Shown: positions 4,358 through 28,959, counted from the first letter of the stretch. The stretch is 64,000 nt of DNA from Bacteroidales bacterium (GCA_028690215.1 JAQVBQ010000005.1:1-64000), one strand, 5' to 3'. Program-made: numbers and translations. Notes: a model not told the origin generated them from the sequence alone.

Positions 4358-4358
4358 A

Positions 4359-5147
4359 TCAATACTTCCTCCCGATAAAGAATGTGTAACTGTAGTAATC
4401 TTTATACTTTTCGAAGTAAGATATCTCCTCCATCATCTCCTCTACAAATCCTCTTGCAGAGTCGCTTGAATTCTGTTGTTCAAGGAACTTGTCAAAAATA
4501 GGGAGCATGGGTTTGTAGTAGTTTTCCATCCAGCAGTACTCAGGAAGCACAAAGGTTGCGACAGGCTCATAACCGGCCTTCTCCATCTGTTTTACCTTAG
4601 TTGAGGTGAAATCGATTTCCGGATAAGCGTCTGTCCAGTATTTTACAATCTCTTTAGGGGGATTTTCCCTTAACCAGGTAATCTCTGATACAGCCAAAAA
4701 ACCACCGTGCTTGAGATATCTTTTCCATTCATTTATACCTCTTTCGAATCCGATATGATAAATAGAGCCCTCCGCCCAGATTAGGTCAAACTCCTCATCG
4801 CGGAAGGGAAGATTGTCCATTGAGGCAACTATGCCCTCGATTCTTTTACCAAGACTGTTTTCCCAGATTCTCTCCTGCAGCTTTTCAATCATCTGTGGGA
4901 TAAGATCCACGGCTTTAATTGAAGACTTTGTATTTTCCCTGAGTGTTTGGGTCTGGCCTCCTGTTCCGCAACCGATATCGGCTATTTTGGTGTTTTCATC
5001 CATCGGTCCGACGAATTCCAGAGCCTTGATTGTCATTTCGACAGCTCCCGGTCCTTGACGGTCAATCTGCTTGAAAAAATCTGTAATTAGATTGAAATCT
5101 ATAACTGGTGTAAGACACTCGTTTTTATTTGATTTATTAGTTTCCAT
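4359..5147 (-). CDS. SAM-dependent methyltransferase (class I)
   Basis: IADIGCGTGGQTQTLRE motif I and Methyltransf_11-type organisation. Confidence 0.85.
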   Translation of the reverse strand: METNKSNKNECLTPVIDFNLITDFFKQIDRQGPGAVEMTIKALEFVGPMDENTKIADIGCGTGGQTQTLRENTKSSIKAVDLIPQMIEKLQERIWENSLGKRIEGIVASMDNLPFRDEEFDLIWAEGSIYHIGFERGINEWKRYLKHGGFLAVSEITWLRENPPKEIVKYWTDAYPEIDFTSTKVKQMEKAGYEPVATFVLPEYCWMENYYKPMLPIFDKFLEQQNSSDSARGFVEEMMEEISYFEKYKDYYSYTFFIGRKY

Positions 5148-5340
5148 TGTGTTGTGTAAATGTTGTCATCCATCCGGTCTGTCCGGAATGTATAATTATG
5201 TATAATGTAAGATTATTCCTCACCGACTAGTGAGGTTTTATAGGAGCCGTATGAAGGTGCGGCTCTCTTTATGCAATGTCCAACACGGAACTATGTAATG
5301 ATTTAATCATAAATTGATTTATGCGGCAAATGTAATAATA

Positions 5341-7599
5341 TTATTGAATAATTGGCTGAAGAAATCTTCCGGTAAATGATTTTTCACATTTAATAAGATT
5401 TTCAGGTATTCCCTCAAAAATAACCTCCCCGCCGGCTTTACCGCCCTCCGGTCCCATATCGATTACCCAATCGGCGTGCTTTATGATATCCGGATTGTGC
5501 TCAATAATTATAACAGTGTTGTTTTTATCTACCAGAGCACCTACAATCCGTCTGAAATTCTCTATGTCTGACATATGGAGGCCGGTAGTTGGCTCATCCA
5601 TGATATAGATGCTGCTGTCATTTTTAAGCTCTGTGGCTATTTTAAGCCTTTGAGACTCGCCTCCTGAAAGGGTGCTCAGAGACTGGCCAAGTTTGAGATA
5701 ACCAAGTCCGACTTCTCGGAGGAGATCGATCTGTTTCCTGATTTTATCGTTTTTGAAGAATTCCAGTGCCTGATTGACAGTCATGTCGAGGACCTCTGCT
5801 ATGTTCATCGAGTTGTATTTTAAATCCAGCACCTCTTTGTGGTATCTTTTTCCTTCGCACTCATCACACACGGTTTTTACAGAGTCGAGAAAATGGAGTT
5901 CAAAGGTGAGAGTACCCTGACCATTGCATTTCAGACAGGCACCCTTTGAGTTGAAACTGAACAATGAAGCCTCTGTCTGAGTTGCTTTTGCAAACTCTTT
6001 CCTGATGAGGTCAAAGACACCGATATAGGTTGCAACATTTGCCCTCGAGGACTTTCCGATTGCAGATTGGTCTATTACAACAGCTTCAGGATGTTGTTTG
6101 ACAAAACACTCATGTATCAGGCTGCTTTTTCCGCTGCCGGCAACTCCTGTAATGCATGTCGGCACACCCTTTGGTATGCGGGTACTCACACTCTTAAGGT
6201 TGTTGGCTGTGGCATTTTTGATTTCAAAAAATCCGGACGGCTCTTTTCTTTTAAAATGACATTTTTCTTCCGCGGACAAATATTTTCCGGTAATGCTATT
6301 TGTCGAGTATATTCCTGAAGGAGTGCCGTTGTATACAATATTCCCGCCGTTCTTTCCGGCCAAGGGACCTATGTCAATAATCCATTCGGCAGATTTTATT
6401 ATTTCCGGATCGTGCTCCACTACAAAGACGCTGTTTCCCCTCTCTTTCAAACGGGAGAGGACTGTGAGAAGCCTCTCGGTATCCCTCGGATGTAGCCCGA
6501 TTGAAGGTTCGTCCAATACGTAGAGCATGTCTGTAAGATTGCAGTCCAGTTGTCTGGCCATCTTCACTCTCTGGGACTCGCCGCCGGAAAGTGTGCTGAC
6601 AGCACGGTCAAGTGAAAGGTAACCGACTCCGATTTCTATAAGCTGTTCAAGGAGAAAGCGTGCTTTACGCAATATCGGTCTCGAAATCTCATCGTCGATA
6701 TCGGAGAGAAATGAGTGCAGGTCAATCAACTCCATTTCGCACAACCGGTCTATTGAACATCCTTTGATTTTTACCGACTTTGCCCTCTCGTTTATTCTGG
6801 AGCCGCCGCACACACTGCAACTCCGGTAAATGAAATATTTGGTGTAGGCGTTCTTCTCGTTTTCATCTGTCTCATCATCTGCCCTTCCGGTAACTGCTTT
6901 TTCGAGTTTTCGCGCAATACCCTCATAATACTTAGTATATGTTAGACGGCTTTTTCTCTTGTCAATCTCAAAAGGTTCTGAATACAACAATAGATTGAGC
7001 TCTTGGTCGGTAAACTCTTTCAAGGGTTTGTCATTGTCAACGATTCCAATGCTGATAAGCTCTTTCCACAAAAAACCTCCCACCTTGTAATGCGGATGGG
7101 TTATTGCTCCCTCTCTCAGAGACTTTTCCCTGTCGAGGAAAAGATCAAGATCAAGAGTTATCTCTTTACCCAGGCCGTGGCAGTGGGTACACATACCCTC
7201 CGGATGGTTGAACGAAAAATAAAAGGAAGGGCCGATAAAGGGTTTTGCAATCCTCGAGTAGAGCAGCCTGAGGTAAGTGTTTATCTCAGTTGCTGTTCCG
7301 ACGGTGCTTCTCAAGTTGTTGCCCATCTTTTTCTGGTCTATTATTATAGCCGTTGAAAGATTCTGGATCTCATCCACGTCAGGCCTTGAAAGCTTTGGCA
7401 TTCTTGTACGGGCAAAGGTTGAAAATGTCTCTATAAGCTGTCTTTGAGCCTCAGTGTAGATTGTGTCAAATAGGAGGGAGGACTTACCGGAGCCGGAGAC
7501 ACCGGTAAACACTACCAGTTTGTGTTTGGGTATCTCAAGATTTATGTTTCTGAGATTGTTTGTATGAGCGTTCTGGATTATAATGCTGTCTTGTCTCAT
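5341..7599 (-). CDS. UvrA-like ABC ATPase, short (752 aa) UvrA paralog
   Basis: Tandem ABC domains ([31 protein letters not shown] twice), UvrA-type CTHCHGLGK and CLKCNGQGT Cys motifs; shorter than canonical ~940 aa UvrA. Confidence 0.88.
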
Positions 7600-11492: not shown

Positions 11493-12404
11493 CTACAGCA
11501 CCTCGTTAAGCAATGCTGCAAGGCGATACCCGGCTCTTAGAACCATGTCACGACCCAGCGGTCCGAAGACCTGTAGTTGCTCTTTTGTGATTTTGCTGTC
11601 TGGCTCGGGCTCAAAGACGGGGTCAAGGCGGCTTGTAATATCACGGCACCAATCCTCAATGCTGCCTTTCTGTATCTCTTTCTGCCAGCGGACTGCCTCT
11701 TTTTTGCCTAATGATCCGTTAATGCACGGGTCGCAATAATATGCAAAATCTGCAGGTCCCCCAATATAACGATCAACCAGAATATCAGTATCCCAGATAT
11801 TATGGTACCTTATTTCCTTGCCATTATAGATAACGTTGTATTTTAAATCATTGCGGTCACGCTTGTCGGTAAAGTGGACATGTGAAGGACAATGCATGTC
11901 TCCAACCAGGTGAACAACCATTTGAAGGGCGAGTTTAACCTCCTCGGCAGAATGACTCTTTCTGTTTCTGAGAATTTCCGCATATTTTTTTATTGCCCAA
12001 ATACATTCCCCCTTGTCAACATTAAGGTAATTACCGGATGCGTCAGCCATCCACCCATGAGGTATGGTGCTCCATACTCTTCCTTTGTCATCGGTGCTGT
12101 AAAATGCTCCAAAGCTGAATGCTTTACCATCAGGGCCTTTGAGCACAGGAGCCCCATCAACAATTATATACTCACCCTCTTCCAATGGGACACAAATTTT
12201 ATATCTATCTTCATCAGGAAAGGCTGCATGTTCGATAAGACTCTCTTTTTGATATATTTCTTGTACAGCTTTGCGAGCGGCCCTTGAGAGATGTTGCTCT
12301 GCTATATATGCAATTGTTGCATGATTGCGTCGGCCGAATGCGTTTGCATTCACACAATTAAAAAGGCTGATTATTAATATCGATATGATAATAAAACGTT
12401 TCAT
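11493..12404 (-). CDS. Secreted S1/P1-type zinc nuclease
   Basis: Signal peptide then FGRRNHATIAYIAEQHL…MVVHLVGDMHCPSHVHFTDKRDRND…IRYHNIWDTDIL zinc-ligand motifs. Confidence 0.88.
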   Translation of the reverse strand: MKRFIIISILIISLFNCVNANAFGRRNHATIAYIAEQHLSRAARKAVQEIYQKESLIEHAAFPDEDRYKICVPLEEGEYIIVDGAPVLKGPDGKAFSFGAFYSTDDKGRVWSTIPHGWMADASGNYLNVDKGECIWAIKKYAEILRNRKSHSAEEVKLALQMVVHLVGDMHCPSHVHFTDKRDRNDLKYNVIYNGKEIRYHNIWDTDILVDRYIGGPADFAYYCDPCINGSLGKKEAVRWQKEIQKGSIEDWCRDITSRLDPVFEPEPDSKITKEQLQVFGPLGRDMVLRAGYRLAALLNEVL

Positions 12405-12456
12405 GTTTTTGAATTTGCGCCAAATATATAAAAATTCCATGCTATCTTTGCAAAAT

Positions 12457-13485
12457 ATGGTGAAGCGTGTTACGATAAAGGATGTTGCAAAAGAGGCAGG
12501 AGTATCAATCGCTCTTGTTTCTATGGTTTTAAACTCAAATATTGGCCCGGATGGAAAACCGAACTGCCCTGTAAGAAAAGAGACAGCAAAACGAATACTC
12601 AGAGCAGTGGCAAAACTGGGTTACATACCAAACAAGGCTGCAGCATCGATTCGAAGTGGAAGGACATACACTATAGCTGTAATTACATCCGACATCTCCA
12701 GTAGCTTTTTCTCTGAAATATCCAAGTATATAGAGAATCTGGCATATGACCAGGGTTACAATATAATTTTTGCAAGTTCTGACGAAAACCCGGTGAAACT
12801 TTCAAAAGTCGTGGATTCCGCAATTCGTCTTGGCGTTGAAGGAATGATTGTAGTGCCCTCTCCAAACGGAGAAGCTACTTTTAATAAAATTTCAGGACTT
12901 GAAATACCTATTGTATTCCTTGAGAGGGATGTGCCTGATTTCCCTAAAGCAGGAAGGGTTCTTCTGGATAATCCAGAGGCAATCAGATTATCTTTATCAG
13001 AGCTGTACGATTCAGGATATCGTAAAATTGAGCTGCTTGCAAACGATATGAATATCAGTACCATCCAAACCCGTGTAGAAGGTTACCGTAGAGAAATGAT
13101 AAAATGGGGACTAGAAGAGAATATTCATATAAACTATGTAAAGAACGGATCAAAAGCTGAACAGGTTGAAGATTTGCTTCGTAGTGCAAAAGCCCGGGGA
13201 GCAGAGGCATTGTATTTGACTTCCAATACAATTACCATTCTGACTATGATTGCAATAAAGAATCTTAAACTAAAAGTGCCACAAGATATAGCATTTGTCG
13301 GATTCGACTATTCTCCGTTTTATGAAGTCTATGCGACGTCTGTTTCATACATACATGAGTCAGCAGAGCAACTTGCATATGAGTCTTTCAAAATGCTTGT
13401 TGACATGATTGAGAACAATGCAGAAGCCAGTACTGTTGTTTTGACCCCTGAGCTTATAAAAGGGAATTCGTCGAAAAAGTTCTAA
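12457..13485 (+). CDS. LacI-family transcriptional regulator
   Basis: VTIKDVAKEAGVSIALVSMVLN HTH plus periplasmic-binding-like effector domain; ATG at 12457 preferred over track start. Confidence 0.93.
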   Translation: MVKRVTIKDVAKEAGVSIALVSMVLNSNIGPDGKPNCPVRKETAKRILRAVAKLGYIPNKAAASIRSGRTYTIAVITSDISSSFFSEISKYIENLAYDQGYNIIFASSDENPVKLSKVVDSAIRLGVEGMIVVPSPNGEATFNKISGLEIPIVFLERDVPDFPKAGRVLLDNPEAIRLSLSELYDSGYRKIELLANDMNISTIQTRVEGYRREMIKWGLEENIHINYVKNGSKAEQVEDLLRSAKARGAEALYLTSNTITILTMIAIKNLKLKVPQDIAFVGFDYSPFYEVYATSVSYIHESAEQLAYESFKMLVDMIENNAEASTVVLTPELIKGNSSKKF

Positions 13486-14900: not shown

Positions 14901-16679
14901 ATGGGAAGCCTGGATTACATCGTAATTTTATTCTATTTCATCGGCTTGATTGCCGTAAGTATGGTCGTGTCACGGAAGATCAAGAGTTCCGAGGATATGT
15001 TTATTGCCGGTCGCAACTCTTCATGGTGGCTGTCCGGTATTTCGTCATATATGACAATCTTCTCTGCAAGCACTTTTGTGGTTTGGGGTGGAGTGGCCTA
15101 TAAATCAGGCATTGTAGCCGTAGTTGTAGCTATCTGTCTGGGATTTGCCTCCTTAATTGTAGGACGGTGGATTTCCGGGAAATGGAGAAAACTACGAATC
15201 AAATCTCCCGGGGAATTCCTTACAGTACGTTTTGGACATGGGACAGTAAGTTTCTATACTATTTCCGGTATTATCGGCCGTGCAATACATACGGCAATCG
15301 CCCTTTACGCCGTTGCCGTTGTTATGTGCGGGTTAATAAAGGTTCCAGACGGGAGTTTCCTGGCCTCTTCAGGGCTCACAGGAGATTCTGCAGCAGGTTA
15401 TCTGAGCATATGGTGGGCATTGTTAATCCTTGGAGCCGTTACCCTTGTCTATACTATCGCAGGTGGTTTTCTAGCCGTGCTGATGACAGATGTTATTCAG
15501 TTTGGTGTTTTGTTAGCCGTTGTCGTGTTTATGATTCCGCTATCATTCAATGCTGTTGGCGGGGTTGGAGAATTTTTAAGCAGAGCATCGGAAATTCCCG
15601 GATTTTTTTCCGGAACGTCAGAGAACTATACGTGGGTATGGCTTTTCTTATGGATATTCCTCAATGTGGCAATGATTGGCGGAGACTGGCCTTTTGTTCA
15701 GCGCTACATCAGTGTGCCGACTGTAAAGGATGCAAAGAAGAGTACATATCTTATAGCATTTTTTTATTTCCTGACACCTCTTATCTGGTACCTTCCAACA
15801 ATGATTTACAGGGTTATGGAGCCGGGGCTGGCTCTTGATGTTGACCCAACTGCCATGACTTTCAACGGAGAACATGCTTATGTCAATATGAGTAAACTGG
15901 TTCTTATGAACGGTGTGGTCGGAATGATGCTTGCAGCTATGCTCTCTGCCACTCTCAGCAATGTATCCGGCACGCTGAACGTTTACGCAAATGTGTTTAC
16001 CTATGAAATCTGGGGACACTCAGAAAAAAATAAAAGAGCGGATGAGAAAAAACGAATTCGTGTAGGACGTACTTTTACGTTTATATTCGGACTGGCGATC
16101 TTGGGAATCTCTCTTCTTGTTCCTTTTGCGGGCGGAGCTGAAAGGGTTGTTGTGACAATTTTGACAATGGTTATCTGCCCTCTGTATATTCCTTCGATAT
16201 GGGGTCTTTTCTCAAAAAGACTCAGTGGCAATCAACTCATTTGGTCAATGGCTGTTACCTGGGTTGTAGGCTTCGCAGCCAAATTCACTATACCGACGAG
16301 CGTTCTCAGTGGAAGCCTTCTAGAGTCTATAAGCGGTATGGTATTGCCGGTGGTAATCCTCCTTTGTATGGAGCTTTGGTCCAAATCCAAAGGTATTACA
16401 AATAAAGGCTATGAAGCAATTGAAAATTATACCGATCCGAATGCCGAGATTGAGCCGGGTGTCGAGATAAAGAAATCGGTGAAGGGATACTCGCACATGG
16501 CAATAAGTGTTTTTTGCATAACCATTGCAGCTATTGCCCTGCTCCTTATTGGCCTGATTGTCGTGGAAGATCCTAAAACACTGGCAGTAAAGAATATTGT
16601 AATGTGGTTTATCGCATCAATACTCATAATGGTGACAGGATACATGGTTTATCGCATTGTTGATAATAAACGAAAATGA
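14901..16679 (+). CDS. Sodium:solute symporter (SSS) family transporter
   Basis: Multi-TM; IAGRNSSWWLSGISSYMTIFSASTFV, GGFLAVLMTDVIQ. Confidence 0.92.
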   Translation: MGSLDYIVILFYFIGLIAVSMVVSRKIKSSEDMFIAGRNSSWWLSGISSYMTIFSASTFVVWGGVAYKSGIVAVVVAICLGFASLIVGRWISGKWRKLRIKSPGEFLTVRFGHGTVSFYTISGIIGRAIHTAIALYAVAVVMCGLIKVPDGSFLASSGLTGDSAAGYLSIWWALLILGAVTLVYTIAGGFLAVLMTDVIQFGVLLAVVVFMIPLSFNAVGGVGEFLSRASEIPGFFSGTSENYTWVWLFLWIFLNVAMIGGDWPFVQRYISVPTVKDAKKSTYLIAFFYFLTPLIWYLPTMIYRVMEPGLALDVDPTAMTFNGEHAYVNMSKLVLMNGVVGMMLAAMLSATLSNVSGTLNVYANVFTYEIWGHSEKNKRADEKKRIRVGRTFTFIFGLAILGISLLVPFAGGAERVVVTILTMVICPLYIPSIWGLFSKRLSGNQLIWSMAVTWVVGFAAKFTIPTSVLSGSLLESISGMVLPVVILLCMELWSKSKGITNKGYEAIENYTDPNAEIEPGVEIKKSVKGYSHMAISVFCITIAAIALLLIGLIVVEDPKTLAVKNIVMWFIASILIMVTGYMVYRIVDNKRK

Positions 16680-18898
16680 AAAAGACGTTAACGTTTCTTC
16701 TCCTCGCACTTTCGATAACGTCTACGGCGCAGGGACAGCTGTTGGTGAAACCGGAGCAGCAGGTTGAGTGTTCTGTTTGGTTCAACAAAGGTGACATACT
16801 CAACTCAGAAGGGAAGAAGATCAGCCAACAAGGTATGGAAATTTGGGGTGACCACATTTTCTCTCTGATGGACAAAGGTTACTGTAATGTTTACAGCTTT
16901 TCAAAACGGGATACCCTTCCAATAGCACAATTCAAACTTGCTTCGTTTGGTTATGACAATCATGCCAACAACGCAAGTTTTGGAACAGAGACAAAACCCG
17001 GTGCAACTTTTCCTCTTCTCTACATAACAAATGGCAAGGTTGGAAGTGATATTGAATGGACCTGTTTTGTTGAAAGTATAACAAAAAAAGGCAAGAGATT
17101 CACTTCAGAAATTGCCCAGACTATTGTCTTAAACGGGAGTGATTGGGCATCCCTGGGTTATACGCCGATTTTCGGTGCACCGTCATGGATGGTGGACCGG
17201 GAAAGAGGTTTTCTCTGGGTATTCTCAGCACGTAAGCGCACGGTTATAAGTGTCACAAAGAATGCGTGGGAGAACCAATATATTGCAACTAAATTCCGAA
17301 TCCCGTTATTGTCTGAGGGTAAAGTTATCCGTCTTTCAGGAGCGGATATTCTCGATCAGGTAGTTTTCCCGTTTGACGTATGGGCTACACAGGCAGGTTG
17401 TGTCCATGACGGCAAAATATATTACTGTTTTGGTTTTGGGAAGAAATATGAGCTTACAACATCACGTATAAGAATATATGATACAGACAGACGTGTTATA
17501 AGCAATCGATATGAACTAGATAACGAAGTGCCTGAAGAGATGGAAGATCTTGTTGTACGAGACGGTTGGATGTATGTCAATACAAACAGCAGACGGGTGT
17601 ACAAAGTCTCTTTGCCGAAGGTTGCCTCTCTTCCGCTTACAGCTCTTGATGAAATACGTCAATGCCCGGAAAAAGCCGGAGGCACATATTTTATTGATAC
17701 TTTTTCTGATCCGGATTCAACCCCTTCTCCGGAGGGATACGAGCCTTTTTATATCAGTGGATATTTCCGTCACGGAGCACGTCAGATAGATGATGACAAA
17801 ACATACAAAATTGTTTATGAATCATTAAAAAGTGCACACGAGACGGGAAATCTGACAGAATTCGGAGCGGCGGTATGGAATCGTCTGGAGCAGTTTTGGC
17901 CAAACCTTCAAAATAGAGAGGGAGATCTTACAATGATAGGATACCGTCAGGTGAAGGCTCTCGGTCAAAGAATGGCAGATAATTACCCTACAGTTTTTAA
18001 CGGGAATCCTTCTCTCAAGACTTTTGCAACAAATATTCTCAGAGTCACAGCGTCAATGGGCGCTTTCAATCAGGGAGTGCAATCCCGTCGCCCGGATTTG
18101 CAGTGGAGTCTGGTTGGTTATTCAAAATCATATCTACCGTTCCTGAATCCTTATACCGGTGAGTGTCCCGGAAATTTGGAAATAGACCAGATTTTAAGAG
18201 ACAAGCGTGGTGAATGGTACGGAAAATACAAGGATTATTGCCTTTCAAAGATTGATACTGATGCATTTTTATCAAGGTTGTTCAAAAATCCAGAGTGTGT
18301 TAAAACCCTCTATGAGCCACTTGATTTGGAGTTCCGTTTCTGGCTTCTGGCATCTCTTACCCAGTGCCTTGACATACAAGTGCCTTTCTGGGATTTATTT
18401 ACACCGGAGGAGACACTGGCTTGGTATACTTGTGAGGCGTACAAAAGCTATATGCAGAAGGGACCGCATCCTGTCAATCAGGGACGTGGCTGGGGTTTAG
18501 GCTCGCGTGTATTTCGCGACATAATCAATACATCAGATAAGGAAATTTCTGCCGGTCGTAATGGTGTAAACCTGCGCTTTGGACACGATGCTGTGATTAT
18601 GTCTCTTTTAACAGTAATGCAGGTGAACGATTGGGATTCGCAAACGAATTCACCGGAAGAGGCAGCTCAGCTTTGGAAAATGTGGAATATCCCAATGGCT
18701 TCCAACATCCAGCTTATCTTTTACAGGAGCGGAAAAAATCCGGAGATTCTCGTAAAAGTAATGCTTAATGAGAAGGTGTGTAAGCTCCCTTTAAATTCTT
18801 CGTTTGGATTCTATTACAAATGGTCTGACATATTTAAGTATTATTCAGATCGTTGTGATTATATCGAAAAAAATTACTTAACCAATTATAAACTATAA
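16676..18898 (+). CDS. Secreted two-domain protein: N-terminal propeller-like region fused to a histidine-acid-phosphatase (MINPP/phytase-like) domain
   Basis: Signal peptide; YFRHGAR catalytic motif and NLRFGHDAVIMSLL (HD motif), MASNIQLIFYRSGKNPEILVKVMLNEK typical of Bacteroides histidine-type phosphatases; ~330 aa N-terminal extension with repeated WMVDRERGFLWVFS/GWMYVNTNSRRVYKV-like blades. Confidence 0.75.
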   Translation: MKKTLTFLLLALSITSTAQGQLLVKPEQQVECSVWFNKGDILNSEGKKISQQGMEIWGDHIFSLMDKGYCNVYSFSKRDTLPIAQFKLASFGYDNHANNASFGTETKPGATFPLLYITNGKVGSDIEWTCFVESITKKGKRFTSEIAQTIVLNGSDWASLGYTPIFGAPSWMVDRERGFLWVFSARKRTVISVTKNAWENQYIATKFRIPLLSEGKVIRLSGADILDQVVFPFDVWATQAGCVHDGKIYYCFGFGKKYELTTSRIRIYDTDRRVISNRYELDNEVPEEMEDLVVRDGWMYVNTNSRRVYKVSLPKVASLPLTALDEIRQCPEKAGGTYFIDTFSDPDSTPSPEGYEPFYISGYFRHGARQIDDDKTYKIVYESLKSAHETGNLTEFGAAVWNRLEQFWPNLQNREGDLTMIGYRQVKALGQRMADNYPTVFNGNPSLKTFATNILRVTASMGAFNQGVQSRRPDLQWSLVGYSKSYLPFLNPYTGECPGNLEIDQILRDKRGEWYGKYKDYCLSKIDTDAFLSRLFKNPECVKTLYEPLDLEFRFWLLASLTQCLDIQVPFWDLFTPEETLAWYTCEAYKSYMQKGPHPVNQGRGWGLGSRVFRDIINTSDKEISAGRNGVNLRFGHDAVIMSLLTVMQVNDWDSQTNSPEEAAQLWKMWNIPMASNIQLIFYRSGKNPEILVKVMLNEKVCKLPLNSSFGFYYKWSDIFKYYSDRCDYIEKNYLTNYKL

Positions 18899-18903: not shown

Positions 18904-20244
18904 ATGAAATTAAGAAAACTCATCCTCGCGGGTCTTGCGCTATTGGCGCTTGGATCCTGCCAGAAGGAGACAGAGCCGTTCATGATGCTTTCTGCTAAGA
19001 AAGTCAGCGTGTCAGCAGATGGAGGTGCTGTTTCTTTCGATCTTTCTGCCAACGTGTATTATCGCGTTTTGGTAGATGACAACTGGATGTCCATTATGGA
19101 CAAGACTGAGGCCGGAGATGTAACGACTTACAATCTCACCATCGCGCCAAACACAGAAACAACACCGAGAGAAGGTACCATTCGTTTTATCGGTGACGGT
19201 GTAACTCCGCTGAAGTTCATTATCTCTCAGGCAGGAGTAGTCCCAAGGGGTGTAAATCCTTCCTCAATCATTGTTAATCCTGAAGTAACAAGTGCCAAAT
19301 TTACTGTTCTCGGGGACAAGCCTTGGACAGCAAGCTGTGCCAATCCTGATTATAAGCTAAGTAGTCAGAGCGGCATAGGTGAAATGGAGGTTAATGTTAC
19401 CTTCCCTGCAAATGAAGAGTATACAGATAAAACAGCTACAATTGAAGTTGTAATTGTAGGAGAGAAATATACTGTCTCGATCACACAGAAAGCGTTGGGT
19501 AAACCACAGGGAATACTTGCAGACTGGGCGTTGGGTCAGATTAAAGAATCATCGACTACTTATTTTGCAGATACAGATCTTCAGACCACTCCCGGAACGG
19601 GGAACAAATATATTCCTGCGAGTACAGGCAACGGAAAGATTGAATATTACGCTTGTGAAAGAACTCCGGATTACACTCTAAAAGCCGGATATAACTGCAA
19701 ACGTCTTGTGGGCAGTAACGGGGATCCATATGTAGAAGGCACTATTGTCGGCGATTATTGGTCGGTAACCGGTGAATATGTAAGAAATATTCCTGCCGGA
19801 ACTGCCATTGATTTCTATTTTGTCACCAAGTTCGGAACATATGTCTCAAACTACTGGCTTGTTGAATATCTGGATGGTTCTACTTGGAAACCGGCCTTGC
19901 AAACAAGTACCATCACTGAGTCTGCTACTATCAGCGGAGCGACAGGGTTGGCACTTGCTTCTCCATATTCAGCCCAGATTACATACAATGTAACCGGTAC
20001 ACTTGACAACACAGGTAACGGTGCATATCATGCAGTTAAGGGAACATTCACCATTTCTGCTCCGATGAAGTCTATCAAACTCAGATTTAAGCCGATGGGA
20101 AGAGTTGGATTTAAAGATGGAAGATATATAGATTATATCAGTCAAAGTTGCCAGTCCCGTTTCTCTGCACAACACGTAAGCAATCCTGACGGAACGCCTG
20201 TAAAAGAATATAACGAGCATGTAACACTCAAATTTGCAGAATAA
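18904..20244 (+). CDS. Lipoprotein with BACON-type repeats and a C-terminal unknown domain
   Basis: Lipobox LALGSCQ; SADGGAVSFDLSANVYYRVLVDDNWMSI…EGTIRFIG…FIISQAG and second FTVLGDKPWTASC…VSITQKA. Confidence 0.8.
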   Translation: MKLRKLILAGLALLALGSCQKETEPFMMLSAKKVSVSADGGAVSFDLSANVYYRVLVDDNWMSIMDKTEAGDVTTYNLTIAPNTETTPREGTIRFIGDGVTPLKFIISQAGVVPRGVNPSSIIVNPEVTSAKFTVLGDKPWTASCANPDYKLSSQSGIGEMEVNVTFPANEEYTDKTATIEVVIVGEKYTVSITQKALGKPQGILADWALGQIKESSTTYFADTDLQTTPGTGNKYIPASTGNGKIEYYACERTPDYTLKAGYNCKRLVGSNGDPYVEGTIVGDYWSVTGEYVRNIPAGTAIDFYFVTKFGTYVSNYWLVEYLDGSTWKPALQTSTITESATISGATGLALASPYSAQITYNVTGTLDNTGNGAYHAVKGTFTISAPMKSIKLRFKPMGRVGFKDGRYIDYISQSCQSRFSAQHVSNPDGTPVKEYNEHVTLKFAE

Positions 20245-23200
20245 TGAAAAAGAGCATAATATTAAGTATTATCCTGATTGTTGCACTGCCTTTTGCAGCA
20301 TTCGCCCAGAACACTCTGAAGGGAACAGTCAAGGATGCGACCGGTCCGGTCATTAGCGCGGTTATTCTTAATCAGAATAATAGCAAGTGGGCAACGACAG
20401 ACCAGAATGGAAACTATACCCTGGATGGGGTTAATAAAGGAGACAAACTCAAAATTTCCTGTCTGGGTTACGCCACCAGAACCATTGAATGGAATGGTGA
20501 GAATCCACTTACCATTATTGTCGAAGAACAAGGTTTTGAACTAAACGAAACTGTAGTCATCGGTTACGGAGCAGTTAAGAAAAAAGACCTCACAGGCTCT
20601 GTTGGTGTTGTAAATAGCAGCATTCTTGAACAACAAAGTAAATCTCAGTTGTCTCAGAGTCTACAGGGTGCAATTCCGGGACTTGTGGTTACCCGCTCAA
20701 GTAGTATGCCGGGAGCGAGTGCCTCTATTCAGGTCAGAGGTGTTACAACCATCTCAGATTCTAGTCCGCTTATACTTGTAGACGGAATGGCTGTAAACAG
20801 TATTGACAATGTTGCCTCAGAAGATGTGGAGCAGATTACAGTGCTTAAAGATGCCGCTTCTGCTTCAATATATGGAGCACGTGCAGCGGCCGGTGTTATC
20901 CTTATTACAACAAAATCTGCCCGTGAAGGTGATGTGCAGATTGGCTACAACGGAGAGGTTTCTGTAGTTAAGGCAACAGAGCTGGCAAGTTATCTGACCG
21001 ATCCATACAACTATATGACCATGTTCAATGAGTACAAGTGGAATGATGCCGGAAATCCTATAGGTGGCGACTACCAGCAATACTCACAGGATTACATTAA
21101 TAATTACAAGACAAACAATGCTCTTGATCCTATCAGCTATCCTGATTTTGACTGGAAGTCCAATATTCTAAAGAAACAGGCATTACGTCACAGTCACAAT
21201 CTGACTCTGACATATGGTAATAAAATAATAAAATCCAGGGCATCAGTCTCGTATGATAAGTCAGACGCACTATATCAGGGTTCTAACCATGAGCGTTTAA
21301 TGGCTCGTGTCCGTAATTCAATAAACTTTGCAAAAAACTGGTCCGGATCATTGGATTTTTCTCTTAAACATGCTGTTAAAAATGATCCTCAAACCGATAG
21401 CCCTATCAAAGCTGCAAATATGTATCCTTCAATTTATGCTGGTTTGTATCCCGATGGCCGTATTGCAGAAGGAAAGACTGGCTCCAATACCCTGGCTGCA
21501 CTCCTTGATGGTGGAAATCAGATAAATGGTAATGACTACATTACAGGAAAAGCATCTATTAGCTGGAAGCCTCTGGCCGGATTTGACTTGACAGCAAGTT
21601 TAACACCAACTTACAGTTTCACCAAACAGAAGGACTTCATCAAGACCATCCCTTATTATGATGCATATGACACAGATGTCCTTCTCGGTTATGTGAGCGG
21701 TTATACTGCAACTGGTCTTACTGAAACAAGATCTGATGCCAAGACAATGGAGACTCAGGTAATTGCAACATATGACAGGACTGTGGCAAATGATCACAGT
21801 ATTAATCTAATGGCCGGTTATGAGGACTATATGTACACTTATGAGACCATGTCTGCAAGCACAAATGACATGGAACTTCGAAATTATCCATATTTAGACC
21901 TTGCAAACACCAATAATCTTGGCGTGAGGGGCGGCTCTTATCAGAATTCATATCGCTCTTTCTTCGGCCGTTTGATGTACAATTATAAAGGCCGCTACTA
22001 TATGCAGCTGAACGCACGCGGAGATGCATCATCCCGTTTCCACAAGGACTACAGATGGGGATTCTTCCCTTCAGCCTCATTAGGTTGGGTTGTTACTAAT
22101 GAAAGCTTTATGCAGGACATAACCCCTGTCAACTACCTAAAAGTCCGCGGATCAATAGGTTCTCTTGGTAATGAAAGAATAGGAAACTACCCATACCAGT
22201 CAAGTATCAGTTTCAACAAAGCAATGATGTATGATGCTAATGGCCAGAGTGTAATGTCTCAGATGACAGGAGCCCAGCTTAATTATGCAGTACGTGACAT
22301 TACCTGGGAAACAACATACAGCTGGGATTTAGGATTGGATGCGGCCCTTTTTAGAAATCGCCTGAATGTAACTGCTGATTACTATTTCAAAGAGACCAGA
22401 GATATGCTTCTTGCTGCGGAGATTCCTACTTTTACCGGATTTGAAGCACCTGATCAGAATGTCGGAACAATGCACACCCGCGGTTGGGAAGTAAGTATTG
22501 GATGGAAAGATAACATCGGGGACTTCAGTTATGCGGTCAGCGCCAATCTGTCAGATTACAGATCTGTAATGGGTGATCTGGGTGGAAAAATGGTTATAAA
22601 CAGTGATGGTACTATAATTAAAGAGGGTGAGGAATATAGAGCATGGTACGGTTATAAATCAGACGGATTGTGGCAGACAAATCCTACAGGAAGTGATGCT
22701 GTAATTATTGCAACTACATCTGCCGGTGATGTTAAATATGTGGACCTTTCCGGTGATGCAGGTACACCTGATGGTAAGATTACAGCAACCTACGACAGGA
22801 CAACCCTTGGCAGCTCTCTTCCACATTATGTGTTTGGCGGTACTATCAGCCTTGGCTGGAAAAACTTCACTCTTTCTGTCCTCTTCAATGGTGTTGGAAA
22901 ACAAACCAGCCTTGTTACACAAGATATGGTACGTCCATTCATGGCACAGTGGCTCTCTGGCCCCGGGGTCCTTCTAAACAGTAACGGAACCAGGGACTAT
23001 TGGAGTACTTACAATACTGAACAGCAGAATATGCACGTTCATTATCCTCGTCTGAGTTACACTTCTGCAGAGAAAAGTAATTATGAGGTATCGGATTATT
23101 GGTTAATGAACGGTGCATATTTCCGCTTTAAGAATATAAACGTATCATATAAAGTTCCGCAGAAGGCTCTCGACAAGATGGGTATAAAGGGACTTCGTGT

Positions 23201-23321
23201 ATATTTCAACGCAGATGATCCGTTCTGTATAGACAACTATCTAAAGGGGTGGGATCCGGAAGCCGGTCCTTCAACCTATATTGCAAAGACATTCACCCTA
23301 GGTGTTGACCTTAATTTCTAA
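20244..23321 (+). CDS. SusC/RagA-family TonB-linked outer membrane protein
   Basis: Carboxypeptidase-like N-domain; VVIGYGAVKKKDLTGSVGVV, IQVRGVTTISDSSPLILVDGMAV, plug and barrel. Confidence 0.97.
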   Translation: MKKSIILSIILIVALPFAAFAQNTLKGTVKDATGPVISAVILNQNNSKWATTDQNGNYTLDGVNKGDKLKISCLGYATRTIEWNGENPLTIIVEEQGFELNETVVIGYGAVKKKDLTGSVGVVNSSILEQQSKSQLSQSLQGAIPGLVVTRSSSMPGASASIQVRGVTTISDSSPLILVDGMAVNSIDNVASEDVEQITVLKDAASASIYGARAAAGVILITTKSAREGDVQIGYNGEVSVVKATELASYLTDPYNYMTMFNEYKWNDAGNPIGGDYQQYSQDYINNYKTNNALDPISYPDFDWKSNILKKQALRHSHNLTLTYGNKIIKSRASVSYDKSDALYQGSNHERLMARVRNSINFAKNWSGSLDFSLKHAVKNDPQTDSPIKAANMYPSIYAGLYPDGRIAEGKTGSNTLAALLDGGNQINGNDYITGKASISWKPLAGFDLTASLTPTYSFTKQKDFIKTIPYYDAYDTDVLLGYVSGYTATGLTETRSDAKTMETQVIATYDRTVANDHSINLMAGYEDYMYTYETMSASTNDMELRNYPYLDLANTNNLGVRGGSYQNSYRSFFGRLMYNYKGRYYMQLNARGDASSRFHKDYRWGFFPSASLGWVVTNESFMQDITPVNYLKVRGSIGSLGNERIGNYPYQSSISFNKAMMYDANGQSVMSQMTGAQLNYAVRDITWETTYSWDLGLDAALFRNRLNVTADYYFKETRDMLLAAEIPTFTGFEAPDQNVGTMHTRGWEVSIGWKDNIGDFSYAVSANLSDYRSVMGDLGGKMVINSDGTIIKEGEEYRAWYGYKSDGLWQTNPTGSDAVIIATTSAGDVKYVDLSGDAGTPDGKITATYDRTTLGSSLPHYVFGGTISLGWKNFTLSVLFNGVGKQTSLVTQDMVRPFMAQWLSGPGVLLNSNGTRDYWSTYNTEQQNMHVHYPRLSYTSAEKSNYEVSDYWLMNGAYFRFKNINVSYKVPQKALDKMGIKGLRVYFNADDPFCIDNYLKGWDPEAGPSTYIAKTFTLGVDLNF

Positions 23322-23326
23322 TTATC

Positions 23327-25036
23327 ATGAAAAAGATATTATACACAATAATTGCAGTGATAACCATTTCATTATGCAATTCCTGCGCAAAGCTCGATCT
23401 CAACCCTCTTTCAGAGGCATCCAGTGAAAACTGGTACTCAGATCCTACAGAATTGGTGATATCACTCAACGACTTTTACCGCGATTACCTTTGGGAGGTT
23501 GAAAGCGGCTATTGGACAGACCGTAGAACAGATGACTGGAGTCAGCGTGATTATATATATGAACTTGCAAACGGCAGTGCTGTAAGTACCTGGAGCTATA
23601 ACTCTTATTGGACAAACACCTACAAAGGCATAAGCCGTGCTAATCGTATTCAGGAATCAATTAAGAAATTAAGAGATAAGTATTCCGAATCAGAACTGAA
23701 TCCACTCCTTGCCGAAGCTTTATTCTTCAGGGCATACTTGTATTCGCGCCTTATCACACTTTATGGAGATGTCCCATTTTATACAGGGTATCTATCAATT
23801 GAGGAGGCATTCAAGATGGGCCGCATCCCTAAAGATACCATTATCAAGCAAATATATGAAGATTTCGACTATGCGGCCGAATATCTCCCTGAAGAGAACA
23901 ACTCTGGAAGTGTAACACGTGTTAATAAGGGTGCCGCCCTGGCTTTAAAAGCGAGATGGGCACTTCAGTTCGGTGATTACGCAACAGCTCTTTCAGCATC
24001 GGATGCTTGTATTAAACTTGAGAAATATTCACTCTATCCCAATTTCGGAGAGTATTTCCGCGACAAGAAAATTAATTGTGAAACCATTTTCACGGTTCCT
24101 CATTCAGCAAGCCTTGAGCTTACCTCTGCCGGTAAACCGGATGTCCAGAGTATAAAAAGCTTTACTTTAAGGATTGCAGGAGGAACAGCAACAGCTCAAC
24201 CATCATGGGAGCTTCTTGCAGCATTTGATTGTACTGATGGTAAGCCGATTGACGAATCTCCTCTGTTTGATCCTCACAACCCATTCAAAAACCGTGATCC
24301 TCGTTGTAACGAAACATTTGTAGAACCTGGCACTGCTGTATACGGATTCATTTTTGACCCTAGTCCCGGTACTATAAATGTTCTGAATGTCACTACCGGA
24401 GTAATGGTAAAGAACAAAGACAACAAGGTAAATGACCAATATGCTGCCTATAACAGTTGTTGCCTGAAGAAGGGTGCTCAGGACGACTGGGTATCCACAT
24501 ACAATGAAAATCCTACGGTAATAATGCGCTATGCAGAGGTTCTCCTTATATATGCCGAGGCTAAGATTGAACTGAATCAGATTGATGCAACAGTAGTTAA
24601 TGCAATCAACGATGTACGTGCCCGTGCTTATGGCGTGCCAAGAGCGCAGGTAAGCAAATATCCTGCTGTAACAGGAAGTGATCAGGCTGAACTTCGTCGT
24701 CAGTTGAGAAAAGAGAGAAGAGTGGAATTTGCATGGGAAGGTCGCCGCTATTTTGATCTTCTTCGCTGGGGCTGGCTTGAAAAGGCCTACAGCCACAACA
24801 TGTACGGCCACTTGAATCAGGAAGGTATCAAGAGTTATTATGCTTCAGGAAAATGGTTCTGGCCTGAGACCCCTGAGATTGACGAGGATGGTTTTGCCAA
24901 CTTTGCGCCAATGTTTGAAAAAGGTTACATTATGCAATACGGCGAACGCAAGTTTGATCCAAAATCTTACCTGTGGCCAATACCAAATACAGACATTCTT
25001 ATAAATAAAAACATAATACAAAACACCGGATATTAG
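23327..25036 (+). CDS. SusD/RagB-family nutrient-binding lipoprotein
   Basis: Lipobox LCNSCAK, TPR-like SusD fold motifs, RRQLRKERRVEFAWEGRRYFDLLRWG. Confidence 0.96.
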   Translation: MKKILYTIIAVITISLCNSCAKLDLNPLSEASSENWYSDPTELVISLNDFYRDYLWEVESGYWTDRRTDDWSQRDYIYELANGSAVSTWSYNSYWTNTYKGISRANRIQESIKKLRDKYSESELNPLLAEALFFRAYLYSRLITLYGDVPFYTGYLSIEEAFKMGRIPKDTIIKQIYEDFDYAAEYLPEENNSGSVTRVNKGAALALKARWALQFGDYATALSASDACIKLEKYSLYPNFGEYFRDKKINCETIFTVPHSASLELTSAGKPDVQSIKSFTLRIAGGTATAQPSWELLAAFDCTDGKPIDESPLFDPHNPFKNRDPRCNETFVEPGTAVYGFIFDPSPGTINVLNVTTGVMVKNKDNKVNDQYAAYNSCCLKKGAQDDWVSTYNENPTVIMRYAEVLLIYAEAKIELNQIDATVVNAINDVRARAYGVPRAQVSKYPAVTGSDQAELRRQLRKERRVEFAWEGRRYFDLLRWGWLEKAYSHNMYGHLNQEGIKSYYASGKWFWPETPEIDEDGFANFAPMFEKGYIMQYGERKFDPKSYLWPIPNTDILINKNIIQNTGY

Positions 25037-25041: not shown

Positions 25042-25995
25042 ATGAGTGTAGATGAAATTCTGTTGAGGAGCAGGTATACTCCTTTAAAAAATGTTCTTTC
25101 TTATGACATTTTCGATACCGGCTTAAATGGCTGGATGACGTTAATGCCAAATTTTACAGAGTATCCTGACTTCGATGTGCCTAAAACACTGGTCTGCAAA
25201 GACCAGTGGCCTCCCGTGATGCTTAGCTCTGCGACATTCCGTTATCCCGGAACGCATGGTGCAATGTCCGGGACATATTCTCTCAAACTCTCCACAAGAC
25301 CTGTAGCAGCACCATATACAGAGAAGCCTGCTGAAGGATGCCTTGGACATGCTATTAAACGCATGTCTTTTTATCGCCCAGGCAGCAGATTTCTCCAGAT
25401 AGAATGCTGGTTTAGTTACACAGCAGAACAGGATGTTGTAGATGGCGGAGAACGCCCTCAACCAGGACTCCATGAAAGCTCAATAAGAAATTTCGGAATG
25501 GGTTTTGACATTCAGGTTAACGGGAAACGCTCCCATGTTGGTCTCCGTTATTTGAATGCCGTTGATGGCAGGATGGTCAGGAAATGGCAATATGAGCTGT
25601 CAAGCGACGATATTACCGATAAGGACTGGGCATTTGGACTGGAAGGAGACTGGTGTAAAAAAGGCGTTGACCCTTGGTGGTTTGGACGCCGTTTCCCAAA
25701 TGGAGATCATGATGGTTTCAAGGACCTTCCCGACGGGCATCAGCAACTAATATACAATGAGACAGACTGCAAGCTTAACTGGCAGTACATGCGTCTCAAA
25801 GTAGACACTGAACTCCGTGAGTATGTCGATTTCCAGTGTCAGGACAGGATATGGGATATGAGAGGCATAAAATCCGATTTAACAGATGCATATGGTCGTA
25901 TAGACAATCTTATCAATCCTTTGTTTTGGGTGGAAACAGACACCAACAGACGAGTTTTCCTTTATATTGATTCAGTAGTAGTATCCCAGGAGTAA
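25042..25995 (+). CDS. Uncharacterised cytosolic protein (317 aa), possibly DUF6772 family (from memory, needs checking)
   Basis: Intact operonic ORF, no signal peptide; FDTGLNGWMTLMPNF…GAMSGTYSLKLSTRP…LNPLFWVETDTNRRVFLYIDSVVVS. Confidence 0.7.
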   Translation: MSVDEILLRSRYTPLKNVLSYDIFDTGLNGWMTLMPNFTEYPDFDVPKTLVCKDQWPPVMLSSATFRYPGTHGAMSGTYSLKLSTRPVAAPYTEKPAEGCLGHAIKRMSFYRPGSRFLQIECWFSYTAEQDVVDGGERPQPGLHESSIRNFGMGFDIQVNGKRSHVGLRYLNAVDGRMVRKWQYELSSDDITDKDWAFGLEGDWCKKGVDPWWFGRRFPNGDHDGFKDLPDGHQQLIYNETDCKLNWQYMRLKVDTELREYVDFQCQDRIWDMRGIKSDLTDAYGRIDNLINPLFWVETDTNRRVFLYIDSVVVSQE

Positions 25996-25996
25996 T

Positions 25997-26326
25997 ATGA
26001 AAAATTTTAATGACTCTCACCTAGAGGTGAAAAAGTTCTTTTCAGGCACTTTCGAAACTCATCCTTATGAGGTTGGTTGGGCCGATGAGGCAATATTTTT
26101 TGTGATGGTTGAAAAAATTAAAGATGATCCGACCTTCACTGCACAGGTACAATTGTCCCAGGATGGAGTGCATTGGGCATCCGATGGTAGTAATCCTGTA
26201 GCATTAAAAGGATTAGGATTACATGTAATTAAAGTTCAACCTAATTTTGGCAACTATCTTCGACTTGCTGTCAACATAACAGGCGGAGAGATGTTCTTAA
26301 ATTTACATATATCATGCAAAGGATAA
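25997..26326 (+). CDS. Small uncharacterised protein (109 aa), operonic
   Basis: Starts 2 nt after upstream stop and overlaps downstream start. Confidence 0.7.
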   Translation: MKNFNDSHLEVKKFFSGTFETHPYEVGWADEAIFFVMVEKIKDDPTFTAQVQLSQDGVHWASDGSNPVALKGLGLHVIKVQPNFGNYLRLAVNITGGEMFLNLHISCKG

Positions 26327-27678
26327 GGCTGATAATTATCTTAGTGATACTTTCATTACCTGTATGGGGTTGTGGAAAGGACAATCAAAGAACTCCACCG
26401 GAAATTCATCAACCGGGCGGGGGCGGTTCTGAATTGAACAAGCCTGTATCTGTATGGTCGGAAGGTGTGATGGATATTCATTTCATAAACACAACAGACG
26501 GCGAAAGTATATTTGTTATTTTTCCGGACAAAACACAGATGCTTATTGACTGTGGCAGCTCAACGGCTACCACAGGCAAGACGCAGATGGACATGAGGTG
26601 GAATCCTGCAGAACTCGGAAGCACTTTGATTACTTCATACATAAAAAAATGTATGGAATGGACCGGAAACAAAACATTAGATTATGCTATTTTGACCCAT
26701 TTCCACAATGATCATTTTGGCGGTTATGACACAAATTATGGGATGTCTCCACTGGGCGGCGATTACAGACAATACGGCTACGCAGAGATTCTTGACAAAT
26801 TTGATTCCATCGATGGATATAAAATCGGTAAAATGGTTGACAGGGCATATCCTGACTATAATTACCCTTTTGATTTGGTAACAAAGTCAAGTAATTATAA
26901 CGGAGTCAGAAATTATGTCAATGCTGTGAAGTGGCATGTGGATAACAAGGGGATGAAGGCAGAGATATTCAAATCCGGCAGTAACAGTCAATTTTCTCTC
27001 AATTACAAAGCTTCACAGTACCCTGCGGTCAAAGTACAGAACATTGCCGTAAACGGAGAAATATGGACTGGATCAGGTACATCTGTGACCAAGACATTCC
27101 CGGCACTGCAAGATATTCAATGTACATTTGACGCTTACGGACATGAAAATCTTCAAAATACCGATAACTGCCCCGAAGAGAATCATAACTCTGTCGTGAT
27201 GAAAATTTCTTACGGCAAATTTGATTTTTACGCAGGAGCAGACATGCAGTACGACGGAAGATCATACAAGAGCTGGAAAGATATAGAGTTACCTGTGGCC
27301 AGAGTTGTTGGTCAGGTCGAATTGATGAAGGCGAACCATCATGGAGTCACCAACACAAATCAGGAAGATGCAGTAAAGGCTCTTAATCCACAGACTATCG
27401 TGATCTGTAGCTGGCAGGATTTACATCCGAGAACTACGGTTCTGGAGTCTATGGAATCTGCTGCACCAACAGCAGATTTCTTTATCACAAATTTTGTAAC
27501 TTCTCCCAGATCGGACAAAGATATTTCAACGGAAGTGGCAGCCCGTGTAAAGGGTAAAAATGGCCATTTTTTAATTCGTGTATCTAATGGGGGAGAGGAG
27601 TATAAGGTTTATACACTATCAGATTCGGACGGTCAGCTGATTGTCAGGTCAATATCAGGGCCTTATAAATGCAGATAA
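26314..27678 (+). CDS. Metallo-beta-lactamase-fold lipoprotein (ComEC/Rec2 C-terminal-like hydrolase)
   Basis: Signal + lipobox LPVWGCGK; Zn motif LTHFHNDHFGG; VELMKANHHGVTNTN. Confidence 0.85.
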   Translation: MQRIRLIIILVILSLPVWGCGKDNQRTPPEIHQPGGGGSELNKPVSVWSEGVMDIHFINTTDGESIFVIFPDKTQMLIDCGSSTATTGKTQMDMRWNPAELGSTLITSYIKKCMEWTGNKTLDYAILTHFHNDHFGGYDTNYGMSPLGGDYRQYGYAEILDKFDSIDGYKIGKMVDRAYPDYNYPFDLVTKSSNYNGVRNYVNAVKWHVDNKGMKAEIFKSGSNSQFSLNYKASQYPAVKVQNIAVNGEIWTGSGTSVTKTFPALQDIQCTFDAYGHENLQNTDNCPEENHNSVVMKISYGKFDFYAGADMQYDGRSYKSWKDIELPVARVVGQVELMKANHHGVTNTNQEDAVKALNPQTIVICSWQDLHPRTTVLESMESAAPTADFFITNFVTSPRSDKDISTEVAARVKGKNGHFLIRVSNGGEEYKVYTLSDSDGQLIVRSISGPYKCR

Positions 27679-28946
27679 TGAAACAGTATGATGTAATAGT
27701 AGTCGGGGCAGGACCTGCCGGATTATGCGCGGCAGTGGCAGCCTCGCGTCAGGGAGCCAGAGTATCTTTGATCGAGCGTTACGGGATATTGGGAGGGAAT
27801 CTTACATCCGGTTATGTAGGTCCGATACTTGGCAGTGTTGGCAAGGGTACAATGCGTGATGAGGTCTGTGCAATTCTCGGTGTCAAGGAGAATGACTGGA
27901 TAGGAGAGCAGGGAAACGCTCATAATTTTGAACAGGCAAAACTGTCATTGGCAGAGTGGATAGCTTCTGAAAAAAATATAGATATATATCTTCAGACCAG
28001 CATTTTCGACGTCCTAAAAAACGGGAACAGAGTAGAAGGAGTGATGTGTGCCTCAAATGAAGGGCCTTTGTATTTTAAAGCTCCTGTCGTAATTGACTGC
28101 ACCGGAGACGGTATTGTGGCATTCCTTGCAGGGGCAGAGGTTGAAAAAGGGCGGGAAGACGGACTGATGCAGCCCGTTACTCTGGAGTTTACCATAGACG
28201 GAGTGGACGAGAGCAGAGGTCTAATTTGTATAGGAGATGTGGACAACGTCCAACTTAATGGTGTTCGTTTTTTGGATTGGTGCAAAGGTATGGCCGATAA
28301 AGGAAAAATCCCTCAAAAAATTGCAGCATTACGTCTTCATCCATGTGTGGAAAAAGGTCGCCGTCAGGTAAATACAACCCAGGTAAACGGAGTGGACATT
28401 ACGCGTATCGAGCAGATTTTTCCTGCAGATCTGGAACTTCGGCAGCAGATACGCCTTCTGACAGAATTCCTCAGGGAAAATGTGCCCGGATACGAGAACA
28501 TTACCTGCATTGGAAGCGGATGTACCACAGGAGTACGTGAAACCCGCCGTGTGGTAGGAGACTATATAATTGATGCGGACGAACTTGCAAACGGATGCCG
28601 GTTTGCCGATGTTATTGTGCACAAGGCACTTTTTATCGTAGATATACACAATCCCGAAGGAGCAGGCCAGGCAGAAGAGAAGATACAGTATTGTCAGCCT
28701 TATGATCTGCCATACAGGTGTTTCCTGCCTAAAGGGATAGAGGGGCTTATGGTTGCCGGCCGTTGTATATCCGGCACGCACCGTGCTCATGCATCATATC
28801 GTGTAATGTCAATTTGTATGGCAATGGGCGAGGCTGTAGGCATTGCTGCAGCAATGTCAGCACAGCAATCATGTACACCAAGAGAACTGGATGTTACTGC
28901 TCTCCAGAGTCTAATGAGTGGTATAGGTATTGAGTTGTTTGATTAA
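27669..28946 (+). CDS. FAD-dependent oxidoreductase (FAD_oxidored type), paralog B
   Basis: YDVIVVGAGPAGLCAAVAASRQGARVSLIERYGILGGN; GVRETRRVVGDY; LMVAGRCISGTHRAHASYRVMSICMAMGEAVG; start possibly 27678. Confidence 0.88.
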   Translation: MQIMKQYDVIVVGAGPAGLCAAVAASRQGARVSLIERYGILGGNLTSGYVGPILGSVGKGTMRDEVCAILGVKENDWIGEQGNAHNFEQAKLSLAEWIASEKNIDIYLQTSIFDVLKNGNRVEGVMCASNEGPLYFKAPVVIDCTGDGIVAFLAGAEVEKGREDGLMQPVTLEFTIDGVDESRGLICIGDVDNVQLNGVRFLDWCKGMADKGKIPQKIAALRLHPCVEKGRRQVNTTQVNGVDITRIEQIFPADLELRQQIRLLTEFLRENVPGYENITCIGSGCTTGVRETRRVVGDYIIDADELANGCRFADVIVHKALFIVDIHNPEGAGQAEEKIQYCQPYDLPYRCFLPKGIEGLMVAGRCISGTHRAHASYRVMSICMAMGEAVGIAAAMSAQQSCTPRELDVTALQSLMSGIGIELFD

Positions 28947-28959
28947 TAAAAGATATCAA

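Follow-up and report, generated by a model that had tools for sequence, protein, structure and literature searches.

Here we describe a gene that encodes an exported fusion of a β-propeller to a MINPP-type histidine phosphatase, at positions 16676–18898 (plus strand) of a 64,000-nucleotide stretch of DNA from a gut-type Bacteroidales bacterium (GCA_028690215.1 JAQVBQ010000005.1:1-64000; hereafter the window). The phosphatase fold is known, whereas the propeller belongs to an unnamed family for which neither Pfam nor NCBIfam has a model. Sequence comparison across genomes identifies this propeller as a lineage-restricted module joined to many unrelated hydrolases, and indicates that a phosphatase was joined to it at least twice independently, in forward (propeller–phosphatase) and reversed order.

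The open reading frame starts with ATG and encodes 740 amino acids. Its signal peptide is of the SPI type and ends in TAQG/Q, with predicted cleavage before Q21 or Q19; Q21 is nearly invariant in the propeller family alignment, and a Q-rule has been described for signal-peptide cleavage in Bacteroidetes (PMC5837995). The fusion protein is probably periplasmic or vesicle-borne. An earlier note, made from the sequence alone, had proposed a propeller-like N-terminal region ahead of a phosphatase carrying the catalytic motifs YFRHGAR and RFGHDAVI, and had suggested structure prediction and Foldseek as a check. Both motifs are present in the C-terminal part (RHGAR at residues 365–369, RFGHD at residues 634–638). 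The AlphaFold model of the full-length protein (pLDDT 85.6, pTM 0.78) and a separate model of the N-terminal region, predicted from 27 family members (pLDDT 89.7, pTM 0.86), bear out the two-domain organization: the N-terminal region forms a separate, all-β domain whose best listed Foldseek matches are propellers, and it precedes a His_Phos_2 domain.

The C-terminal half matches the Pfam model His_Phos_2 (PF00328) at residues 364–698 with 51.9 bits against a cut-off of 23.6 (E = 1e-13). Foldseek on the full-length model aligned this half with solved MINPPs (TM score 0.9, E = 3e-30), including the Prevotella CAG:617 MINPP 7r5y (2.3 Å root mean squared deviation). The RHGxR and HD motifs, a third active-site arginine in mid-domain (Arg456), the curated model and the fold together place the domain in the branch-2 MINPP/HAP group. 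The HAE tripeptide of MINPPs in the narrow sense, which is the proton-donor motif of BtMinpp (PMC3969271), is replaced by HD, as in phytases and 7r5y. The earlier note had singled out the missing proline of the RHGxRxP signature. The proline is indeed absent (RHGARQI), but it is likewise missing from 10 of the 11 non-fused Bacteroidales relatives aligned with the fusion (L010 alone has it) and from 7r5y, which reads RHGSRYLTD. Its absence is therefore ordinary in the clade and no useful criterion for exclusion, and we discarded it as a sign of unusual specificity. MINPP-type genes are much multiplied in the window's family (202 of 398 genomes, with up to seven matches per genome), and the window genome carries a further stand-alone MINPP on contig C27.

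In the predicted N-terminal domain, 20-odd strands group as five blades, the last of which is closed by the N-terminal strand (residues 32–37). The strand count and the closest topologies indicate a five-bladed propeller; the highest target TM score among the listed propeller matches (0.64) was that of the five-bladed glutaminyl cyclase 3nok. No Pfam or NCBIfam model scored above its cut-off in this half of the protein. A Kelch_2 match confined to one blade (residues 239–275) reached 16.1 bits against a cut-off of 21.3, and we set a Kelch identity aside and treat the domain as one of an unnamed five-bladed family. The glutaminyl cyclase model PF05096 gave no match in the window protein (E up to 10) or in members of the family alignment (E up to 1), and searches of Protein Data Bank sequences with propeller profiles returned only chance-level or single-blade matches. 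Profile–profile alignment (hhalign) of the propeller family with Glu_cyclase_2 gave a probability of 96.2%, but the aligned part comprises 73 of about 320 columns; in it, Gln239 and Glu290 fall opposite invariant residues of the TQGL and EGI motifs.

Nine residues (His96, Tyr116, Gln148, Asp174, Phe207, Pro210, Gln239, Gly253 and Glu288) are invariant over 31 diverse propellers and three more (Gln52, Asn98 and Glu290) nearly so, at a mean column identity of 33%; the invariant residues hold across propellers with many unrelated fusion partners. According to the predicted strands, Gln52, His96, Asp174, Gln239 and Glu288/290 lie in or beside the opening strand of one blade after another, a pattern suggesting that the conserved polar residues form a site in the central channel.

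We searched 399 genomes from the window's family with a profile and located the propeller in 80, in up to five places per genome. The loci that we read are a non-random sample, and counts among them show presence, not frequency. Most copies at these loci are stand-alone exported proteins of about 290–320 amino acids. The others are fused to PAP2 phosphatases (13 loci, mostly in one genus), sulfatases (4), MGH1/GH63-like (3) or GH92 (2) domains and, at a single locus each, EEP, DUF6259 or a LamG-like domain; the reversed phosphatase–propeller order occurs at three loci (L079, L080 and L081). Sulfatase, GH92, EEP and calcineurin-like metallophosphoesterase (MPE) genes also stand as separate genes 2–40 bp from stand-alone propellers. 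Such recurrent fusion to unrelated hydrolases points to the propeller as a new shared building block of enzymes for nutrient scavenging, not a one-off oddity. Outside the window's family, a Bacteroidaceae genome (G042; L045 7935–9853 and 11322–12206) holds three closely spaced propeller copies without a phosphatase. Weak profile matches elsewhere in the phylum were rejected as members, those tested with Pfam being glutaminyl cyclase or SdiA-regulated proteins and the others that were fetched being cyclase-like.

The most regular gene partner of the propeller is a sodium:solute symporter (SSS), encoded directly upstream in 11 of 15 stand-alone loci (L029–L043); the two genes share an ATGA overlap in each of the six loci inspected, with or without the fusion (window, L023, L025, L031, L035 and L039). 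A phosphoesterase gene is present in 12 of the same 15 loci. In 11 it is a calcineurin-like MetallophosN/C MPE, ten of these at least 69% identical to that of L035, and in L033 and also L036 a histidine phosphatase is encoded as a separate gene adjacent to or near the propeller. Between phosphatase-type and MPE-type clusters, the FAD-dependent oxidoreductase FADox1 is 68–71% and the symporter 56–72% identical. The window genome has no close relative of the stand-alone-locus MPE (best match 34%), so the fused phosphatase may take its place in the window cluster.

An accessory-like N-terminal module, as the earlier note had envisaged, fits these observations. Its proposed role in recognizing the phosphatase's own phosphorylated substrate is too narrow, as the propeller occurs alone or with unrelated hydrolases and is kept without a phosphatase in L023 (see below). 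An inert spacer, anchor or oligomerization scaffold, comparable to BACON or DUF1735 in other Bacteroidota proteins, would also agree with the promiscuous fusion to many hydrolases, a pattern reported for those two modules (PMC11216935). We hold that role to be improbable: the propeller sits at either end of its partner and is mostly alone, the window copy has no lipobox, and invariant polar residues are kept in an otherwise divergent family, unlike in a spacer.

Another reading makes the propeller itself an enzyme, either a glutaminyl cyclase relative or a mutarotase- or lactonase-like catalyst of a step before transport, and the fusion bifunctional. The predominance of stand-alone exported members, the invariant His96, Gln148, Asp174, Gln239 and Glu288, the 73-column match with its aligned Gln239 and Glu290, and the rank of 3nok among the listed structures all agree with this. 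So does the overlap with the SSS gene, which recalls sialate mutarotases, whose genes adjoin transporter genes. We nevertheless find catalysis by the propeller doubtful, since the cyclase similarity spans about a quarter of the domain, joining to many chemically unrelated hydrolases is more usual for a binding module, and the gene neighbourhood suggests no reaction. More speculatively, the propellers could be a new catalytic family derived from glutaminyl-cyclase-like propellers and joined to phosphatases, sulfatases and glycosidases as bifunctional enzymes that finish a common class of substrates before symporter uptake, a scenario that we consider unlikely. A binding propeller is the reading developed below.

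The earlier note had also called for a search for the same fusion elsewhere. A propeller scan of 84,980 species genomes yielded 23 loci, and the window's domain order recurs in four further distinct genomes (L024, L025, L026 and L027). L067, L056 and L104 are the same as L026, and L057 and L103 the same as L024; they add nothing to this count. These fusions show 54–55% overall identity, a conserved PE.AGG element in the linker and largely retained RHGAR and HD motifs. Their clusters resemble that of the window, with SusC, SusD and DUF6772 genes and, where the locus reaches, BACON or metallo-β-lactamase-fold neighbours. An assembly artefact or a chance read-through, conceivable because the data do contain a real chimeric contig (L028, FolD joined to the propeller), is refuted by the shared order in independent genomes and by the deletion derivative L023; we give it almost no credence. 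L028 itself was not counted as an independent fusion: at 4223–5887 a FolD-like coding sequence runs into the propeller within an SPEKDVD stretch common to both, the sequence is essentially identical to L025, and the bin is labelled Firmicutes. In both L025 and L028 a Gly-to-Glu change in the catalytic motif (RHEAR) may impair activity. In L024 (1131–5123; a single metagenome-assembled genome), symporter, propeller and phosphatase read as one frame of 1330 amino acids, as the sequence lacks a stop codon for SSS.

The closest relative of the window cluster, L023, comes from the same genus; its propeller is 78% and its neighbours 77–95% identical to those of the window, and its reading frame closes shortly behind the propeller. 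The stop codon is followed by a relic of the phosphatase 3′ end (L023 2132–2211; G018:C104), which agrees with the last 31 bases of the window phosphatase gene in 26 places and is in register with the following gene; none of 2000 shuffles scored as high. On this evidence, L023 most likely deleted the phosphatase domain and kept the propeller, and we rejected its stand-alone propeller as an ancestral state.

Phylogenetic analysis argues for separate origins of the two fusion orders. In a tree of 46 phosphatase domains, the nearest neighbours of the forward fusions are phosphatases joined to calcineurin-like enzymes (L105–L109; support 93/85), and the reversed fusions (L079–L081) fall in a different subclade. 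With the propellers, the approximately unbiased (AU) test rejected a single clade of forward and reversed fusions (p = 0.00014); with the phosphatases, the rejection was marginal (p = 0.037). L127 (1345–3276) and L128 (1324–3282) combine a MINPP-type phosphatase with a different propeller-type domain (SdiA-regulated/phytase-like). The separate subclades, the AU tests and these two loci point to repeated joining of MINPP-type domains and propellers. A single clade of all propeller-linked phosphatases, obtained in a small tree, was withdrawn, as stand-alone enzymes interleave with wider sampling. In L105–L109, the phosphatase partner is a MetallophosN/C calcineurin-like enzyme (Pfam on three of the five), and a second MINPP-type gene lies directly upstream of the fusion.

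The fusion gene forms part of a cluster (Table 1) that contains a SusC/SusD pair (20244–25036), recognized by sequence and not by family model and kept in L023–L027, as in a polysaccharide utilization locus (PUL). Of the proteins of the cluster that were compared with Pfam, none was a glycoside hydrolase or lyase. The zinc-type dehydrogenase also scores, below the cut-off, with an inosose dehydrogenase model. The DUF6772 protein and its 109-residue neighbour (25042–26326), both probably cytosolic, are the best-conserved pair of the cluster, at 72–95% identity. In another genus, L209 (G027:C2:24650-33492) resembles the window in that its propeller, here a stand-alone one, is accompanied by SusC, SusD and homologues of mannitol dehydrogenase and FAD oxidoreductase; no phosphatase was seen in that cluster. 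Literature searches for DUF6772, for PULs that combine mannitol dehydrogenase with phosphatases and for Cryptobacteroides phytases yielded no helpful information.

Table 1 Features of the propeller–phosphatase gene and its cluster, in window coordinates.
Feature	Position	Strand	Basis or remark
LacI-family regulator	12325–13485	+	Pfam scan
FAD_oxidored (FADox1), PF12831	13566–14879	+	68–71% identical to FADox1 beside stand-alone propellers
SSS (sodium:solute symporter)	14901–16679	+	Overlaps fusion gene by ATGA
Propeller–MINPP fusion protein	16676–18898	+	740 aa; sequence, Pfam, AlphaFold, Foldseek
Signal peptide, residues 1–20	16676–16735	+	SPI type, no lipobox Cys; sequence
Five-bladed β-propeller (predicted), residues 32–312	16769–17611	+	AlphaFold, Foldseek, family alignments
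Linker, residues 313–354, includes DEIRQCPEKAGG	17612–17737	+	Fusion comparison, full-length model
MINPP-type branch-2 histidine phosphatase domain, residues 355–737	17738–18886	+	Pfam, AlphaFold, Foldseek
RHGAR motif, residues 365–369	17768–17782	+	Nucleophile His366 at 17771–17773
RFGHD motif, residues 634–638	18575–18589	+	His637 and Asp638; proton-donor HD, not HAE
BACON-domain putative lipoprotein	18904–20244	+	Pfam scan
SusC-type TonB-dependent transporter	20244–23321	+	Assigned by sequence and position
SusD-type lipoprotein	23327–25036	+	Assigned by sequence and position
DUF6772 protein, no signal peptide seen	25042–25995	+	79–91% identical across related clusters
109-aa companion of DUF6772 protein	25997–26326	+	72–95% identical across related clusters
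Exported metallo-β-lactamase-fold protein	26314–27678	+	Family scan
Second FAD-dependent oxidoreductase (FADox2)	27669–28946	+	Family scan
Zinc-type polyol/threonine dehydrogenase-like protein	28930–29994	+	Family scan, solved relatives
PfkB kinase	29994–30866	+	Best solved relative fructokinase 2qhp, 252 bits
Long-chain mannitol dehydrogenase	30876–32186	+	Best solved relative mannitol 2-dehydrogenase 1lj8, 323 bits
GxDLY/SGNH hydrolase	32183–33286	−	Pfam scan

We consider it on balance probable that the protein is an exported two-domain phosphomonoesterase with a binding propeller, feeding a dephosphorylated polyol to the symporter. In this scheme, the SusC/SusD pair would bring in a phosphorylated polyol or oligomer, from which the MINPP-type domain would remove phosphate by way of a phospho-His366 intermediate. 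Polar residues lining the central channel of the propeller would hold the substrate or the dephosphorylated product, keeping it near both the catalytic domain and the symporter, whose gene lies upstream of the fusion gene and overlaps it. The symporter would then import the freed polyol, to be oxidized by one or more polyol dehydrogenases and subsequently phosphorylated by the fructokinase-like kinase. A SusC/SusD pair without a glycosidase, together with mannitol 2-dehydrogenase-like and fructokinase-like enzymes, fits such dephosphorylation of polyols ahead of symporter uptake. To the observed domain make-up, catalytic motifs, recurrent independent fusions, invariant residues and gene order with its overlap, the scheme adds phosphatase activity, the class of substrate, a propeller that binds and does not catalyse, and delivery to the symporter, all of which we infer.

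Several points weigh against this scheme. The two domains need not go together, as most propellers of the family occur without a phosphatase; the apparent remote kinship with glutaminyl cyclases, an enzyme family, leaves room for catalysis by the propeller; not every copy need be active, given RHGAS in the reverse-fused L079 and RHEAR in the forward-fused L025; and the invariant residues are located by predicted strand order only. The substrate could also be more conventional, with the enzyme a plain phytase and the cluster scavenging inositol phosphates, which would be compatible with the two-domain mechanism. The solved structures nearest to the domain are all of MINPPs, that of 7r5y contains an InsP6-type ligand, and MINPP-like genes are strongly multiplied in the window's family. 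Yet the metabolic enzymes with the best matches point to mannitol 2-dehydrogenase and fructokinase, not to a myo-inositol route, the below-cut-off inosose dehydrogenase score notwithstanding, and the genome has another stand-alone MINPP on C27, so that a dedicated phytase seems possible but not likely. As far as sequence matches go, the enzymes of the cluster weakly favour hexitols over inositol as the polyol released.

Found repeatedly with phosphoesterases of four unrelated folds (fused to MINPP, PAP2 and EEP domains, and encoded next to calcineurin-like enzymes), as well as with sulfatases and glycosidases, the propeller offers a tractable handle on scavenging by uncultured Bacteroidales of gut and rumen. 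Should it recognize one shared moiety, a single binding experiment would assign a class of substrate to many clusters that lack annotation. The fusions also show MINPP phytase-like enzymes being multiplied and rebuilt in animal guts, where the release of feed phosphate matters.

Compared with known systems, the phosphatase domain shares with the solved MINPPs (BtMinpp 4fdt/9qz0; 7r5y) the fold (TM score 0.9), RHGxR, the mid-domain arginine and export. It has HD where BtMinpp has HAE, lacks the signature proline as 7r5y does, and differs from all of them in its fusion to a propeller and its setting in a SusC/SusD cluster with polyol enzymes. The propeller resembles five-bladed glutaminyl cyclases (PF05096; 3nok/3nol) in its predicted fold, and the 73-column profile match pairs a Gln and a Glu; outside that match the blades fail to align, and it has no counterparts of the remaining invariant cyclase residues. 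Kelch/sialate-mutarotase propellers beside SSS symporters are likewise exported and encoded next to an SSS gene; the window propeller has sub-threshold Kelch similarity in one blade, and five blades are predicted. Like BACON and DUF1735 modules, it is lineage-restricted and fused to diverse hydrolases of nutrient-scavenging clusters. Those modules have Ig-like folds, are N-terminal in most cases and occur mainly on lipoproteins (PMC11216935), whereas the module described here is a propeller with invariant polar residues that occurs at either end of its partner or alone.

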